DNA of 64,000 nt from Reichenbachiella agariperforans. GTDB taxonomy: Bacteria > Bacteroidota > Bacteroidia > Cytophagales > Cyclobacteriaceae. The position numbers and the translations under genes were made by a program. The stretch is taken from NCBI RefSeq assembly GCF_900142205.1, contig NZ_FRAA01000004.1, positions 124,001 to 188,000 on the forward strand, read 5' to 3'. Shown here piece by piece: positions 53,476 through 60,107 of the stretch (position 1 is the stretch's first letter; each line of letters starts with the position of its first letter). Below the pieces are notes generated by a model. It was not told the DNA's origin. It saw nothing but the letters and a program-made list of their open reading frames with translations, and did not search any database.

Positions 53476-53976
53476 AACTCTTAACTGGTTGAAATGTGAT
53501 AATTTTACTGAACTTTGATAATTAATTCTAGTTACTATTATACAATAATTATTCGAACTAAAATTATCGAAAACAGAAAATCATTCATAATTACATACTC
53601 CTTTTCTCAATTATTTCCACACTTATCCTCATCCCAAAACCGTACTATACAATAGTCAAACTCCAAAGAAGCAACGAGTCAGGACTAATAGTATTCACCA
53701 AAGAACACCACCTCAAACGTGGCTACTGCTGCAAAAATGGCTGCAAGCACTGTCCATATGGGTTTAAAAAGTAAGGCTCTTAAGCCCAAGAAACAAGACG
53801 CTAAAATTTAAGCCCTTAGAAAATAACTCATTCAAAATCAGTAAAATACATTAACCACTCTCTTGGCACTGTCAGCTAGATACCTTATCCTTGACATACT
53901 AGGCTTATAACCAGCTCCTACCTCTCAAACCTCTTGAAGGAGTGCTTGGTAGATAATCAAAACACTAGTATTCAGG
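53476..53976. other. Intergenic region with truncated DUF5522 copy
   Basis: This 501-bp stretch between the unknown secreted-protein gene and the CrtI-like gene holds the 5'-truncated DUF5522 copy (53672-53774). The left 190 bp are AT-rich and the right 200 bp carry nothing recognisable apart from the leader of the CrtI-like gene. Confidence 0.5.
53672..53774 (+). pseudogene. 5'-truncated second DUF5522 copy
   Basis: The last 34 codons read SGLIVFTKEHHLKRGYCC, then KNGCKHCPYGFKK and stop. The first 94 bases align without gaps to 51771-51864 of the intact DUF5522 gene with 11 differences (about 88% identity). Most differences are third-position changes that keep the protein sequence, which suggests that selection acted after the duplication. 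The EDYYFN segment and any ATG are missing; the frame upstream is open but reads as AT-rich non-homologous sequence (no start seen). It is probably a relic. Confidence 0.7.
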
Positions 53977-55647
53977 ATGGAATTAGATACTATCATTATT
54001 GGGTCTGGAGCAGGTGGACTTGCCTCTGCTATTTGTCTTTCGCGTGCAGATCAGCGGGTCATGGTACTGGAACAACACGACGTACCTGGAGGCTGGTGTC
54101 ATAGCTTTTACTTGAATGGCTACCGGTTCACGCCGGGTGTTCATTACATAGGCCTACTCGGCAAAGGCGAATCAACCAGCGAGTTGTACGAGGGTTTGGG
54201 GATTGCCAATGACTTGGTGTTTTTTAGAATGAACCCTGCTGCCTATGAGCATTGCTGGATTGGCGATGAGCGTGTCGACATACCTGCTGGCTTTGACGAA
54301 TTGAATCAAGCCCTATCGAAGCGTTTCCCTCACGAAAAAAAGCGCATTCTCAAATACCTCACTACGGTTCGTAATGTCAGCCGACAACTACAACTCATCC
54401 CCAAGATGAGTGGCTTTTGGGACAACGTCACCATCGCTTGGCGCACAAGACACCTCGGTAAATACGGACTCTTTAGCCTCAAAAAAGTACTGGACTGGCA
54501 TATCAAAGACCCCCTGCTCAAAAAGGTGCTCAATGTCCAATGTGGTGATCATGGCCTGCCTCCTACCAAGGCCAGTTTCCCTTTGCATTGTGCGGTCATG
54601 GATCATTACTTCAGTGGGGGATTTTATCCCATGGGTGGTGGTGGAGCGATTGTCAAAGCCATGACGAAAGTCATCAAACAAAATGGCGGTGAAATACGAA
54701 CCAGTCAAAGTGTGAAAAGCATCTTGATCGAAGGAGATACGAAAAAGCGTGCCGTAGGTGTCGAACTAGAAAACGGAGAGAAAATATACGCCAAGCGAAT
54801 CATCTCTAATGCTGACCCTAGTGTGACCTACCTTGACATGGTCGGCAAAGACAATCTCAGCCCTAAATTATTGGAGAGACTAGACAAGACAAAGTACTCG
54901 TGCACCTCACTCATGCTGTTTCTCACCGTGGACATGGATGTACGCAAGGCAGGTCTCGACTCTGGCAACATCTGGATGATGGCTGACAAGGATACGGACG
55001 AACTATTTGCTGAGATGATGAAAGTCGATATTGCGGAGGGAGACGAATTCCCAGGGATGTTTATCAGTTGTACCACACTCAAAGATCCTCCAAGTTTTGA
55101 TGGCAGGTATCATACGCTCGAAGTGGTCACCTATATCAACCGGGAGTCATTTAATCACCTAAATGAAGAAGAGAACGAACGATCAGAAGCGTACCAGCAA
55201 TTCAAAGAGCGCTTAGCCAAAAAGATCATCACCAGCCTCGAAAAAGTATTGCCTGGCGTCACCAACAAGATCGTGCAGCAAGAACTAGGCACACCGATGA
55301 CCAATGAGTATTACATCAACGCTACGAACGGTAGCGTCTATGGCACAGAAAAGAGCTTCAAGCAAACAGGCCCCTTTGCCTACAAAGCGGAGAGCGAAAT
55401 CGAAAACTTGTACCTCTGTGGTGCCAGTATCATTTCGCATGGTGTGGCAGGTGCGGCCTACTCTGGCGTACAAACAGCCGCCAAAATCCTCAACTGTAGA
55501 CAGGAAGACCTCATCCAACCGAGTCACGCACAAAACGTGCGTATCTACGATGCAGAAGATGACACTGAGTACCCAGACTGGATGCTACAAAAGATGAAAG
55601 TCAAACGAGCGAGAGCTGGATCAGGTCTCAAAACGGTACAGTCTTAG
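53977..55647 (+). CDS. CrtI/CrtISO-like FAD-dependent oxidoreductase
   Basis: The 556-residue flavoprotein begins with a FAD Rossmann motif (GSGAGGLASAICLSRA at 9-24, followed by VLEQHDVPGGWCHSF), characteristic of the phytoene desaturase / carotenoid isomerase / retinol saturase superfamily. The middle part contains PMGGGGAIVKAMTKVIKQNGGEI and the C-terminus LYLCGASIISHGVAGAAYSGVQTA, the second FAD-contact region. The sequence is closer in layout to CrtISO and all-trans-retinol 13,14-reductase than to true desaturases. No other carotenoid genes are adjacent, so the substrate is open. A 20-residue basic tail (MKVKRARAG) ends the protein. Confidence 0.88.
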   Translation: MELDTIIIGSGAGGLASAICLSRADQRVMVLEQHDVPGGWCHSFYLNGYRFTPGVHYIGLLGKGESTSELYEGLGIANDLVFFRMNPAAYEHCWIGDERVDIPAGFDELNQALSKRFPHEKKRILKYLTTVRNVSRQLQLIPKMSGFWDNVTIAWRTRHLGKYGLFSLKKVLDWHIKDPLLKKVLNVQCGDHGLPPTKASFPLHCAVMDHYFSGGFYPMGGGGAIVKAMTKVIKQNGGEIRTSQSVKSILIEGDTKKRAVGVELENGEKIYAKRIISNADPSVTYLDMVGKDNLSPKLLERLDKTKYSCTSLMLFLTVDMDVRKAGLDSGNIWMMADKDTDELFAEMMKVDIAEGDEFPGMFISCTTLKDPPSFDGRYHTLEVVTYINRESFNHLNEEENERSEAYQQFKERLAKKIITSLEKVLPGVTNKIVQQELGTPMTNEYYINATNGSVYGTEKSFKQTGPFAYKAESEIENLYLCGASIISHGVAGAAYSGVQTAAKILNCRQEDLIQPSHAQNVRIYDAEDDTEYPDWMLQKMKVKRARAGSGLKTVQS

Positions 55648-55653
55648 TTTGTC

Positions 55654-56061
55654 TTAAAACTGCGTGATTTTATGAATCTGACCTAAGATCCGACAGGTAG
55701 CTTTCAGCGTATTATAAATCGTCCCGAAACTCTCAATATTCTTTTTGAGCAAATCAAGGTTGATATGATCGTCTTGACTATAGATTTTCAATTCATAGGT
55801 GATCGTATCCATTCTGGGAGGTTTGTCCAGCCGTGTAGCCTCTACGCTGATCTCTGCCTTCTCATATTCAAACTTAAGTATCGAAGAGAACCGCTCCACA
55901 TTCTTGAGAACGCAGGCCGCCAAGGAACAAAGAAACAGTTCCGCAGGATTGGCTAGGTTGTCAGCTGTCGCTGCTGTCGTCCCAAACTTGATTTCAGAAT
56001 CCTTGATGAGGCTCACTGCATCATGATCTGCTAAAGCCTCCGCTTTGATAGAATAATTCAT
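55654..56061 (-). CDS. OsmC-family protein
   Basis: The 135-residue OsmC/Ohr-fold protein shows NPAELFLCSLAACVLKNVERF with cysteines at 45 and 50, the latter at the usual peroxidatic position, and the C-terminal CRILGQIHKI. Family members detoxify organic hydroperoxides; the second conserved cysteine may be the one near 127 (TCRI). I chose the ATG at 56061 (MNYSIKAEA), because 17 in-frame upstream residues do not fit. It converges with the CrtI-like gene, 6 bp from its end. Confidence 0.88.
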   Translation of the reverse strand: MNYSIKAEALADHDAVSLIKDSEIKFGTTAATADNLANPAELFLCSLAACVLKNVERFSSILKFEYEKAEISVEATRLDKPPRMDTITYELKIYSQDDHINLDLLKKNIESFGTIYNTLKATCRILGQIHKITQF

Positions 56062-56181
56062 TTTGCTGTTGTTTATGGTTATGCCATAATCATACAACGA
56101 GACGCACACCAAAAGGATGAATCATCGCATTGGGTCGTAGTGAAAAACCTGTCAGGGTTACTCTTTCAATCCTCGAAAAAC

Positions 56182-56697
56182 TCATTTCAGTGTCCTAACT
56201 TTATTAATCACCATCTCAAATAGAAGGTATTCTTCTCCTTTTACTAAACCCCAGTCTACACCTCTAAGTTCAGGTTCCTGTCCAACCTCCATGTAAGTCC
56301 TGTAATTCGAGAGTTTAAAAATTACATTTTTAACATTTTCCAAGGGTGTTGAACCATTTCTGATTTCCTCCAAACTGAGTTTATCCGGTAAATTGTGCGC
56401 TAAATCATTTCTGTGTTTCCTCAATGCTTGGATAGTTAATAAATCATTGGAGTCAATGGCTTTCATAAAATCCTTTAAGTAAAGAAGACAAGCTTCAAAT
56501 TCATTCTTATGACGTGCTAAAACATCTTCTTTATAAGTTTTAAATGGCCCTCCCTGAAATTCAGTATTAGCATAAAAGGATTTAATTGGCCCCACTATCA
56601 TAGTCTTAGTCAATTCAAATGACAGTAGGATATAGCCCGCATAGGTGAGTATGTATGTTAGTTCATCTTCTCTAATGCTTGAAACTTTATTAATCAT
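56182..56697 (-). CDS. Lone HEPN-domain-like protein
   Basis: The 171-residue helical protein contains the HEPN signature R-(4)-H as RNDLAH (R96 to H101), preceded by the helix NDLLTIQALRKH. In HEPN families such R and H residues form an RNase active site or bind nucleotides. I chose the ATG at 56697; a TTG 15 bases upstream is also in frame. No MNT-type nucleotidyltransferase antitoxin or other known partner lies next to it, and an N-terminal hydrophobic segment (ILTYAGYILLSFELTK) may bury or touch the membrane. The family could not be fixed further; a role in RNA cleavage or defence is inference. A palindrome array lies 286 bp upstream. Confidence 0.6.
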   Translation of the reverse strand: MINKVSSIREDELTYILTYAGYILLSFELTKTMIVGPIKSFYANTEFQGGPFKTYKEDVLARHKNEFEACLLYLKDFMKAIDSNDLLTIQALRKHRNDLAHNLPDKLSLEEIRNGSTPLENVKNVIFKLSNYRTYMEVGQEPELRGVDWGLVKGEEYLLFEMVINKVRTLK

Positions 56698-56982
56698 GTT
56701 CTTAAATTTCAATAATCATCAACAAACTGAAGTCTTGTACTCAACAACCTAATATAGCCCACTCCGCAGTTTATACATGTAAAAACTCACTTAAATACTC
56801 TATTGCCAATAGGTTGTTAATTATTGATTTCTTCAAGGATAAGCCATTATCCACAATCCAATACCAACATCTTACCCGAAAATCACACGACGCATGAAAA
56901 ATCCCCAAATCTAGGTAGTAGATCAAAGGCTCTTCTTTTTCATCTTTCGGAAAGCTTTGAGGAGAGCAACAAAAGTTCGGGT

Positions 56983-57090
56983 TTCTGCTTGCGCAAGCAG
57001 AAGGTTCACCTTGGGCAAGCAGACAGTTGAGCTTGCCCAAGCGCAGCCTTCCCCTTGCGCAAGGGTAAGGCTGGCCTTGCGCAAGGCCAG
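56983..57090. repeat. Array of five palindromes at an exact 22-bp period
   Basis: The 10-bp core CTTG(C/G)(G/C)CAAG starts at 56988, 57010, 57032, 57054 and 57076. The first, fourth and fifth are CTTGCGCAAG; the second is CTTGGGCAAG and the third its reverse complement, CTTGCCCAAG. The first and fifth lie in perfect 20-bp palindromes (TTCTGCTTGCGCAAGCAGAA at 56983-57002; CTGGCCTTGCGCAAGGCCAG at 57071-57090). The fourth is the centre of a 30-bp near-perfect palindrome (57044-57073). Units two and three pair with each other as an 11-bp stem with a 10-base loop. The 12-bp intervals differ. It is GC-rich in an AT-rich surround. It looks like a cooperative protein-binding array or a structured element. 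Confidence 0.85.
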
Positions 57091-57129
57091 AACTGAGGTG
57101 ACGTCTGTACAACCTAGTCCAAACAATAA

Positions 57130-57158
57130 CCCCCATCCTCGGCTATCAAGGATGGGGG
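57130..57158 (-). terminator. Terminator after the LURP-one-like gene
   Basis: A perfect 10-bp stem CCCCCATCCT (57130-57139) with AGGATGGGGG (57149-57158) and a 9-base loop lies 29 bp after the stop codon. The following minus-strand sequence (TTATTGTTT) is a moderate T-rich tail. Confidence 0.75.
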
Positions 57159-57186
57159 CTAGATCATATTATCATAAAGTAGAAAC

Positions 57187-57774
57187 CTACTCCTTCAGCA
57201 CCATATCGATACACATCACTGCACCCAAGATCAATAGACGCATGGGGTGGTTTTCTGTGACTTTCTCATCTATATGTAGGATATAATTGTCCGCTGTGGT
57301 GAACAATTCTTTGCCCAATCCATCCCATTTTTTACTGACTGAAGCGAACTCTACTTGGTCCTTGATGAATTTAAAATCCCAACTCGTCCACTTTCCTTTG
57401 AGTGTACAGAGTACGTTATCATTGGCATCCAGCACATCAAACTTCCCACCTATGGAGAAGAATTTTTGTTTGAACTTCCCGACCAAATTATCATTTTCAT
57501 CCAGTACTTCGACATCAGACAAAAAGATCGAGATGCCTCTTTTGACCGTAAGGACTTTTTCTCCTGAGGTCGTTTTGATCTCTACATTGAAAGGAGTCAT
57601 TCGCTTGTAATCCGTAAAGCGTAACATTTTGGTCAAAAAGCCCAACTTCTCTTCACGACAAGTCATGATCATTTCCTGATTGTCAGGATTGTAAATATCG
57701 TAGTTGTTCGACGCTTTGAACATCCCCACATGCTCCTTCACAAAGAACAGGTTACGATTTAATATTGAATTCAT
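57187..57774 (-). CDS. LURP-one / YxjI-like (Tubby-fold) protein
   Basis: The 195-residue protein has the beta-strand pattern of the LURP-one-related/YxjI family, relatives of phospholipid scramblases and Tubby: NLFFVKEHVGMFKASNNYDIYNP, then VLTVKRGISIFLSDVEVLDENDNLVGKFKQKFFSIGGKFDVLDANDNVLCTLKG read as paired strands, with a final hydrophobic helix (RLLILGAVMCIDMVL) as in scramblases. The cellular role of bacterial members is not established; lipid or membrane association is likely. It is separated from the UvrD gene by 86 bp on the same strand and ends at a terminator. Confidence 0.82.
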   Translation of the reverse strand: MNSILNRNLFFVKEHVGMFKASNNYDIYNPDNQEMIMTCREEKLGFLTKMLRFTDYKRMTPFNVEIKTTSGEKVLTVKRGISIFLSDVEVLDENDNLVGKFKQKFFSIGGKFDVLDANDNVLCTLKGKWTSWDFKFIKDQVEFASVSKKWDGLGKELFTTADNYILHIDEKVTENHPMRLLILGAVMCIDMVLKE

Positions 57775-57860
57775 ATTGATAGGTTTTTGTTTATTTATTG
57801 GTTTTTCAGCCGCCTTTAGTCATGCAGGCATCGCATCTACTCAGCGAGATAACCTCAACA

Positions 57861-60107
57861 CTACAGTATCCTCAGCTTGGCAAAGCTCAGCAACAGGGTC
57901 TTCTCTCCAGCCTTTTCGAACGTGATATGGGCTTTCTTATTGGCGCCTTGAATCTCTATCTTGGTCACCTTTCCAAAGCCAAACTTCGGGTGTTCGACCT
58001 TGTCTCCCTCTGCCAGTTTAGACGTGTTGCTTGGTTTGAAATCGGCAGACGGCTTGTGCACGACAGCCTGATTGACAGGCTTGCGAACCGGTTGCGTTGT
58101 ATTCCCGATGAAGTTCTTCGCATAGTCACCTGCAGGTGAGCTAGGCGCACTAAATTTGAGATTCATCTTGAGAAAATCTTTGTCTATCTCCTCTAGAAAG
58201 CGGCTCGGTTCGCAGGTTTTGAGTCTACCAAAACGATAGCGTGTCAGCGCATAACTCATGTAGAGTTTCTTCTCCGCACGGGTGATGGCCACATAAAACA
58301 AGCGTCGCTCCTCCTCTAGATCCTGCCTAGAACTGATCATCATCTGTGACGGAAACAAATCCTCTTCCATCCCGACGACAAAGACGTTCTTGAACTCCAG
58401 TCCCTTGGACGAATGTATCGTCATCAGGGTCACATAGTCTTTGTCTTCATCCTTGTCATTGTCTGCGTCCGTCAGCAGTGCAATCTCTTGCAGGAAAGAT
58501 GCCATGGATTTATCCTCAGACTCCGGGTTGTCGACGAACTCCTTGATCCCATTCAAGAGTTCCTGTACGTTTTCGTAGCGGTTGCGTCCTTCTATGGTTT
58601 TGTCATCGTAGAGTTCCTTGAGCAAACCTGAGTTTTTGGCGATGTGCGAAGCTGCCTCGAAAGCGTCTTTCTTCGCCACGGTCAACTTAAAGCTCTTGAT
58701 CATCGTCACGAAATCATTGACTGCAGAGGCAGCCCGACCTCCCAGTATCTGCGTAGCGTTCTCTAGAGCCGTCCACAGATCTGCATTGTTTTCGGCCGCT
58801 GCTACGATCAATTTCTCCACTGAGGCAGCTCCAATCCCACGTTTGGGCGTATTGATGATACGGCGCAGTGCTTGTTCGTCGTTTTGGTTGACAGAGAATC
58901 GCACATAGCCCAAGATATCTTTGATTTCCTTTCGCTGATAGAAAGACAACCCGCCCACTATCTTGTACTTGATGTTGTTGCGGCGCAGCGCCTCCTCCAG
59001 TGCTCTGGATTGGCTATTGGTCCGGTATAGGATCGCAAAATCCGAGTTGTGATAGTGGTCTTGGTTTTTGGACTCAAAGATGGCCGAAGCGACGAGTTTG
59101 CCTTCCTCATTGTCGGTCGTGGCTTTGATCAGGTCGATCAGCGAGCCTTCATCATTGTCAGTCCAGACACTCTTTCGCAGCTGGTTCTTGTTCTTGCCTA
59201 TGATAGAGTTGGCTGCTCCTACGATGGTCTTGGACGATCGGTAGTTTTGCTCCAGCTTGATGATATTCAGCTCTGGATAGTCCTTCTCAAAGTTGAGGAT
59301 GTTTTGGATATCCGCTCCACGAAAGGCGTAGATACTCTGTGCATCATCTCCCACGACACAGATGTTTCGGCGAACTGCTGCGAGCTTTTTAGTAATCAGG
59401 TACTGCGAGATATTGGTATCCTGAAACTCATCGACCATTACGTACTTGAAACGCTGCTGGTACTTGTTGAGCACATCGACGTGATCCCTGAAGAGCACGT
59501 TGGTATTGAAGAGCAAGTCATCAAAGTCCATGGCATCCGCCTTGAAGCATCGCTTGACGTACTCCTTGTATATCTTACCCATCTCAGGCTTACCGTTTTC
59601 GGTATCGTCTGCCAGATAGATAGGGTTGTTGGTGTATTCTTGCCACGAGACCAGACGGTTTTTGGCACTAGAGATGCGGTTGAGTACCACATTGGGTTTG
59701 TAGAGTTTATCATCCAACCCATAGTACTTGACGATATTCTTGATCAGGGATTTAGAATCATCCGAGTCGTAAATGGTAAAGTGACTAGGATAGCCGAGCT
59801 TATCCGCTTCAGAGCGCAAGATTCTTGAAAACACGGAGTGAAAAGTCCCCATCCAAAGGTTACGTGCATCAGTCCCTACCAGCTCTTCGATACGATGACG
59901 CATCTCCTTAGCAGCTTTGTTGGTAAAGGTCAGCGAAAGGATAGAAAACGGGTCGACGTTCTTTTCTTTCAGCAAATGAGCAATTCGATAGGTCAGTACT
60001 CGGGTCTTACCCGATCCAGCTCCTGCAATGATCATCGTAGGGCCTTCGGTCTTCAGTACTGCTTCTCGCTGAGGTGGGTTTAGTATTTCTAGATAATTCT
60101 CTTCCAT
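57861..60107 (-). CDS. uvrD: UvrD/PcrA-family 3'-5' DNA helicase
   Basis: The 748-residue superfamily 1A helicase has a Q motif (LNPPQREAV), Walker A AGAGSGKT (28-35), motif Ia SLTFTNKAAKEMR, motif II DEFQDTN (about 224-230), motif III VGDDAQSIYAFRGA, motif IV EQNYRSS, motif V VTLMTIHSSKGLEFKNVFV and motif VI RRLFYVAITRAEKKL. The C-terminal 110 residues include a KVEHPKFGFGKVTKI Tudor-like element typical of PcrA/UvrD, which contacts RNA polymerase. It acts in nucleotide-excision repair, replication restart and transcription-coupled repair. It is 7 bp downstream of the DUF3109 gene, so probably in one transcript. Confidence 0.95.
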   Translation of the reverse strand: MEENYLEILNPPQREAVLKTEGPTMIIAGAGSGKTRVLTYRIAHLLKEKNVDPFSILSLTFTNKAAKEMRHRIEELVGTDARNLWMGTFHSVFSRILRSEADKLGYPSHFTIYDSDDSKSLIKNIVKYYGLDDKLYKPNVVLNRISSAKNRLVSWQEYTNNPIYLADDTENGKPEMGKIYKEYVKRCFKADAMDFDDLLFNTNVLFRDHVDVLNKYQQRFKYVMVDEFQDTNISQYLITKKLAAVRRNICVVGDDAQSIYAFRGADIQNILNFEKDYPELNIIKLEQNYRSSKTIVGAANSIIGKNKNQLRKSVWTDNDEGSLIDLIKATTDNEEGKLVASAIFESKNQDHYHNSDFAILYRTNSQSRALEEALRRNNIKYKIVGGLSFYQRKEIKDILGYVRFSVNQNDEQALRRIINTPKRGIGAASVEKLIVAAAENNADLWTALENATQILGGRAASAVNDFVTMIKSFKLTVAKKDAFEAASHIAKNSGLLKELYDDKTIEGRNRYENVQELLNGIKEFVDNPESEDKSMASFLQEIALLTDADNDKDEDKDYVTLMTIHSSKGLEFKNVFVVGMEEDLFPSQMMISSRQDLEEERRLFYVAITRAEKKLYMSYALTRYRFGRLKTCEPSRFLEEIDKDFLKMNLKFSAPSSPAGDYAKNFIGNTTQPVRKPVNQAVVHKPSADFKPSNTSKLAEGDKVEHPKFGFGKVTKIEIQGANKKAHITFEKAGEKTLLLSFAKLRIL

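Follow-up and report, generated by a model that had tools for sequence, protein, structure and literature searches.

A phase-conserved, dispersed palindrome array in Reichenbachiella agariperforans, probably an operator array or a nucleoprotein site

Several described systems share part of the layout analysed here. The response regulator BvgA~P binds Bordetella promoters in head-to-head dimers whose centres lie 22 bp apart, two helical turns on the same face of the DNA; its sites are of unequal strength, its arrays abut the promoter -35 element and its weak sites are without clear motifs (PMC7250471). REP/BIME sequences are short extragenic palindromes that occur in groups and are uneven among species, with a constant GTAG or CGTC tag at one end of each REP palindrome (PMC3733652). 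Among Bacteroidota, the BrickBuilt MITE of Porphyromonas gingivalis is an interspersed element with tandem short repeats, which are direct copies of a 23-nt unit, AGAYCATARTATCCTCTCRTRTG; its terminal repeats resemble IS5-family elements (PMC4596501).

The palindrome array that we followed up lies in a window of 64,000 nucleotides, by which we mean the whole stretch of DNA analysed. Like the BvgA~P arrays, it has inverted half-sites centred every 22 bp; unlike them, it belongs to a set of intergenic, dispersed arrays with strict TTG-NN-CAA cores. The window array is not at an evident promoter, and we use the likeness as an analogy without claiming kinship between BvgA and the candidate array-binding protein. 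With REP/BIME it shares extragenic, dispersed palindromes, but it differs in its fixed 22-bp step, its unlike linkers and its few copies, and membership in the REPs is not supported. The BrickBuilt unit differs from the present palindrome. A literature search by core strings and palindromic tandem repeats, partly by title, showed no such element among the papers listed, in keeping with the earlier note, whose author knew of none. We conclude that the element is real, conserved in phase and dispersed; a row of operators or a nucleoprotein array, with its sites in phase, is its most likely nature. Its five units are as follows.

56988..56997, no strand: core unit 1, CTTGCGCAAG, within the perfect 20-bp palindrome 56983-57002
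57010..57019, no strand: core unit 2, CTTGGGCAAG
57032..57041, no strand: core unit 3, CTTGCCCAAG, the reverse complement of unit 2
57054..57063, no strand: core unit 4, CTTGCGCAAG
57076..57085, no strand: core unit 5, CTTGCGCAAG, within the perfect 20-bp palindrome 57071-57090

These 10-bp cores and 12-bp intervals make up 98 bp of intergenic DNA. Reading the window confirmed the five starts given by the earlier note, as well as its remarks that units 2 and 3 are mutual reverse complements with an 11-bp arm and that units 1 and 5 sit in perfect 20-bp palindromes. The window has four matches to the two-unit pattern with a 12-bp interval, and 100 dinucleotide shuffles have none. CRISPRs consist of repeats that are almost identical, exceed about 20 bp and are separated by unique spacers of comparable length; cores of 10 bp and intervals of 12 bp do not have this layout, and the array was rightly said not to be a CRISPR. 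It was also rightly said to be non-coding, as the coding signature is absent from a comparison of seven homologous copies, in which variable columns are spread evenly over codon positions (11/10/14). A coding array was rejected: one frame is open in five of the seven copies, but it contains stops in L016 and L021.

The reading that we favour, though it is unproven and we rate it at about an even chance, is that a dimeric protein which binds DNA sequence-specifically has its sites here, five in a row. A dimer would occupy each TTG-NN-CAA, one per 22 bp or two helical turns, so that all dimers would stand on the same face of the DNA, and the row would seed a local nucleoprotein structure for boundary formation, silencing or anchoring of the adjacent variable genes. 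We infer the binding, the dimer, its cooperativity and any boundary or silencing role. The 2-bp spacer between half-sites may link the core to LuxR/NarL-type proteins. An operator or nucleoprotein array was among the roles suggested in the earlier note, and it is the one that best fits the evidence. Because the array is intergenic and lies beyond a terminator-like hairpin, a local nucleoprotein structure is likelier than a simple promoter operator.

The window array is one copy of an intergenic element dispersed over 15 loci of its own genome, each with at least two units in the 22-bp step, at these contig positions.

C8: 734243, 868582, 1543054
C9: 180988 (the window array); C11: 88781, 338020
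C14: 193682; C15: 187972, 203115, 257579
C16: 131, 172093, 272090 (C16:272090 found as a pair only)
C17: 179438; C18: 56242

The suggested search for recurrence at many loci thus yielded 15 in the own genome and more in two congeners. Three-unit arrays are present in three of the eight genomes of the genus (own, G001 and G003) and sporadically in other Bacteroidota, and the own genome has a single spacing; the element is therefore neither an ordinary dispersed repeat with hundreds of copies at variable spacing nor absent from all close relatives, the two outcomes named as unfavourable beforehand. Among 146 relatives, own genome included, three-unit arrays occur in six, and among 395 genomes sampled across the phylum in the own genome only. 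Such patchy occurrence speaks against a core function, and a phylum-wide one was rejected.

Spacing is the most constant property of these copies. A search of the own genome for TTGCGCAA N4-34 TTGNNCAA, which covers pairs 12-42 bp apart and requires one CG-centred unit, placed all 38 pairs at exactly 22 bp (a 14-bp gap; 52 strand hits, of which 25 are forward and 27 reverse), and the backward-read control of the same pattern had 0 matches in that genome. In a count of any TTGNNCAA neighbours up to 80 bp away, which covered 14 stretches of the own genome, the distance was 22 bp for 44 of 50; the remaining six, at 15, 21, 24, 30, 33 and 44 bp, count against the docking of a protein row. Degenerate units continue in phase past the array ends, with an offset of 22 ranking top of 89 offsets both in the genus (z 3.2) and in other Bacteroidota (z 5.9); off-phase offsets score too: 28 reaches z 2.7 in the genus, and in other Bacteroidota 11 reaches z 4.8 and 34 reaches z 3.3. 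The number of units is not fixed at five. We rejected 'always five units' on L051, which has three, on L020 and L056, which are two units apart, and on the many arrays with four exact units. Between the orthologous arrays L051 and L052, and also between L020 and L056, the difference is two whole units, or 44 bp, with the phase maintained.

Seven copies have homologous flanks (the window copy, L011, L013, L015, L016, L018 and L021), and their arrays are gap-free in multiple alignments, with no single-base length change; a pairwise aligner introduced compensating gaps in three pairs, each with the diverged L021. Unlike the array, a 75-bp stretch of leader averages 0.86 gap blocks per pair. Cores are intact in 33 of 35 cases, and the variable columns number 2/30 in TTG/CAA, 4/10 at the outer core base, 2/10 at the centre, 27/48 in the linkers, 17/43 in the leader and 8/14 in the tail. 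TTG/CAA thus differs in variability from the linkers (Fisher p=7.6e-6) and from the leader (p=0.002), and linkers compare with leader at p=0.14; these tests take the copies as independent, and since the seven share descent and L011, L013 and L018 are near-identical, the p-values are only indicative. Together with the 38 of 38 pairs at 22 bp, gap-free arrays with drifting linkers uphold the proposal that spacing is constrained more than sequence.

Between the orthologous arrays L014 and L019 (loci 83% alike), no core position of 24 changed, with 11/58 changes in the linkers and one degenerate unit. In the orthologous L095/L145, from two MAGs (loci 88% alike), linkers and centres are much changed and cores and phase are kept, with a length difference just past the array; in the orthologous pair L156/L069 the array is almost unchanged. 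Because neither an RNA fold as a general rule nor a coding signature holds up, the half-sites and the phase are the conserved parts, and a protein bound to the double helix would recognise just these. Directly before the L014 and L019 arrays, between convergent genes, stands a hairpin that is probably a terminator and shows a matched change in both arms between the species (ATGCTAAATC/GATTTAGCAT against ATTCTAAATC/GATTTAGAAT).

Three other explanations compete with the protein row. A structured RNA or a stack of 3'-UTR hairpins, in which the units would pair with each other in a transcript, draws on arrays that out-fold their dinucleotide shuffles (window z -5.2/-3.7 on the two strands, L057 z -11.6/-14.9), on perfectly complementary linkers in L052 and L057 and on a covariation score that only 14 of 500 shuffles matched over the seven copies. 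We consider it very improbable, since only four of 14 arrays retained the fold excess when linkers were shuffled and cores kept (the other 10 had z -1.2 to +0.8, the window array -1.0), two-sided change was seen in only 2 of 34 pairs of the seven-copy alignment, both in L021, with several linker pairs broken in most copies, and the window array lies beyond the terminator-like hairpin. Rfam returned no family for window 55500-58000, where two microRNA models scored far under their gathering scores, and a general fold signal is absent from the homologous leaders (one L015 strand reached z -2.7). The excess survived linker shuffling in L014 (z -4.2), L053 (-5.5), L057 (-6.5) and L052 (-8.2); despite these, a regular RNA fold was rejected as a general rule, and a regular long hairpin finds no support in linker shuffling or pair counts. 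Linkers complementary beyond chance in four of 14 folded arrays are also more than a plain operator row needs, and so count against docking. The perfect complementarity, of linkers 3 and 4 in L052:6788-6885 and of linkers 1 and 4 in L057:5102-5199, looks as if produced by hairpin or template-switch copying.

Such copying is part of a mutational explanation, in which the array is a decaying minisatellite whose palindromic cores provoke slippage and template switching, with no selection. The whole-unit copy-number differences in L051/L052 and L020/L056 would follow, as would the perfect inverted copy in L052, the likeness of adjacent linkers in unlike-linker Bacteroidota arrays (0.58 against 0.28 for random pairs) and the alike linkers in 73 of the 117 arrays listed in the scan described below. 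Neutral units should decay evenly, yet the cores vary at 2/30 columns against 27/48 in linkers and 17/43 in the leader (p=0.002), and single-base length changes are absent from the seven aligned arrays; this explanation is improbable. A mobile or selfish intergenic repeat of REP/BIME or MITE type, with the palindromes as transposase hairpins and an array without host function, is doubtful. The element is indeed dispersed, intergenic and patchy among species, a crude gene call places a facing gene 3' end no more than 350 bp away at 15 of 19 loci, and the long copies L011, L013 and L018 are 94-95% alike over 540-730 bp beside unrelated genes, which indicates recent spread. Transposition, however, does not explain a constant 22-bp step with drifting linkers. 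The units also lack the constant GTAG or CGTC tag of REPs (PMC3733652); single GTAG or CGTC strings lie near units, never at a constant place. Neither are the arrays adjacent to a RAYT (Y1 transposase): the own genome has four Y1_Tnp matches, and the four stretches around them (3.2-3.3 kb) hold no array and no 22-bp TTGNNCAA pair.

The row of protein sites, which we continue to favour, has the following neighbours at the window locus.

56182..56712, minus strand: gene of 176 aa, called start TTG, about 31 bp from the leader end
57127..57161, minus strand: intrinsic-terminator-like hairpin of the scramblase/LURP-one-like gene, with the array beyond it
57187..57774, minus strand: scramblase/LURP-one-like gene, 3' end towards the array

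The first of these had been called a HEPN gene, but Pfam, NCBIfam and PADLOC searches at E 0.01 gave zero matches, leaving the tie to HEPN unsupported. For the gene described as LURP-one-like, the best Pfam match is Scramblase (5e-21), and the LURP-one likeness amounts to a LOR match at 8e-4, below the cut-off. One terminator-like hairpin was observed near the array against a mean of 0.4 in shuffles. A scan of 56700-57200 for sigma-70-like promoters, a type that leaves out those of Bacteroidota, found none. At this locus there is no array in the stretches of G003, G005 and G007, and window 53476-57186 is variable, as G003 and G005 carry different genes there beside conserved neighbours. Plasmid or phage origin was rejected, window 56742-57132 having zero matches in the plasmid and phage collections. 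The count of 15 of 19 loci with a facing gene 3' end refers to the genus and G095; L020 may be a sixteenth, by way of a doubtful 78-aa frame, and the L018 and L053 arrays lie between divergent genes. That arrays are mostly near gene 3' ends and not at promoters counts against docking, as does the lack of a common gene among the flanking genes inspected by eye.

The homology extends beyond the array into a leader and a tail.

56742..56987, no strand: leader, 79% alike with L016 over 246 bp, parts common to L020, L053, L056 and others
56743..56751, no strand: AACAACCTA, left arm of the inverted repeat by which the leader ends distally, with TAGGTTGTT at 56810-56818 as its right arm
57086..57132, no strand: tail, common to L016, and to about 57110 with L021

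Sequence sharing stops at the distal leader end, by the inverted repeat. This end is bounded in eight copies (the window copy, L011, L013, L016, L018, L020, L053 and L056), and in all eight the shared leader ends 0-46 bp before the start codon, as called mechanically, of an outward-pointing gene. An imperfect inverted repeat lies beside this end, which reads GGTTGTT in five copies and AATGTT(A/G)G in three; leader homology without a bounded joint is seen in L015 and L021. By BLASTP the eight genes are mutually unrelated. One is OLD/GajA-like, with a PADLOC Old match at 4e-97; NERD and SEC-C motifs occur in another, a third has a weak DUF5677 match below cut-off, and five of the eight are without a Pfam or NCBIfam match (the PADLOC scan covered the seven genes other than that of L056). 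The L055 array of G001, for which no shared leader was detected, has a HamA gene (Hachiman-type) at a distance of 368 bp.

The leader end looks like a gene-cassette joint. As with integron attC joints, the shared DNA stops at a fixed joint that contains GTT, an imperfect inverted repeat stands alongside and unrelated genes follow directly; unlike integrons, the element shows one joint per copy, and the palindrome array is not part of attC. IntI (TIGR02249) has matches in all eight genus genomes, none above the curated cut-off, and an integron was rejected on this ground. The cassette-like joint could hint at how defence genes come to be collected.

The array itself can be followed further. A four-unit scan of GTDB genome contigs gave at least 112 stretches with at least 117 arrays. 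We call linkers unlike when their mean pairwise identity is below a chosen threshold of 0.75; they are so in 44 of the 117 arrays listed, all 44 in Bacteroidota by record title, and alike (identity at least 0.75) in the other 73. Unlike-linker arrays are thus restricted to Bacteroidota in the scan sample. The 17 listed loci outside Bacteroidota by title, with L135 left out, are all alike-linker arrays and look like what is expected of chance minisatellites.

Non-Bacteroidota loci, first nine: L068, L070, L080, L092, L096, L097, L100, L112, L113
Non-Bacteroidota loci, other eight: L114, L116, L117, L120, L138, L149, L150, L160

Because the search pattern fixed core and step, these hits conserve the core by construction; their information lies in the taxonomic restriction, the differing centres, the in-phase degenerate units and two orthologous pairs. 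Core centres differ among several listed Bacteroidota genomes (CG, TA or AC/GT, mixed in others), and Bacteroides heparinolyticus DSM 23917 has arrays with TTGTACAA cores. A scan of viral contigs by pattern gave seven stretches, and when the 117 listed arrays of genome contigs are pooled with 7 of viral contigs, 80 of these 124 show four exact units. Classed by a crude gene call, the 44 unlike-linker arrays include one divergent, eight convergent and 10 tandem intergenic positions, 17 that overlap an open frame (11 of these under 150 aa) and eight unclassed; translated neighbours at 33 of the 44, inspected by eye, have no common regulator.

A broader proposal, which we think unlikely, would make these Bacteroidota-restricted docking arrays the targets of a protein family that forms polymers along the DNA and reads TTG-NN-CAA every two turns, with centre and linkers evolving fast and in a species-specific manner; in the genus, the array would be part of a cassette-like element with unrelated, partly anti-phage genes joined to its other end, and the array would mark or control a new gene-capture platform. 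To our knowledge, little is known about the DNA-organising proteins of Bacteroidota. If a polymerising protein does bind, the ladder would bring to light a factor of this phylum that organises the chromosome or controls islands, and supply a simple sequence rule for locating its sites. Centres that differ between species on fixed half-sites and spacing would also make protein-DNA co-evolution directly testable.

Two further observations concern related layouts. In the phylum-wide sample, G378 has six forward matches to the backward control, AACNNGTT at a 22-bp step, which may be arrays of a family with a different core. At L074:7394-7469 (Hoylesella marshii), TTGCGCAA is interleaved 11 bp from TTGGCCAA cores, a hint of one site per helical turn.
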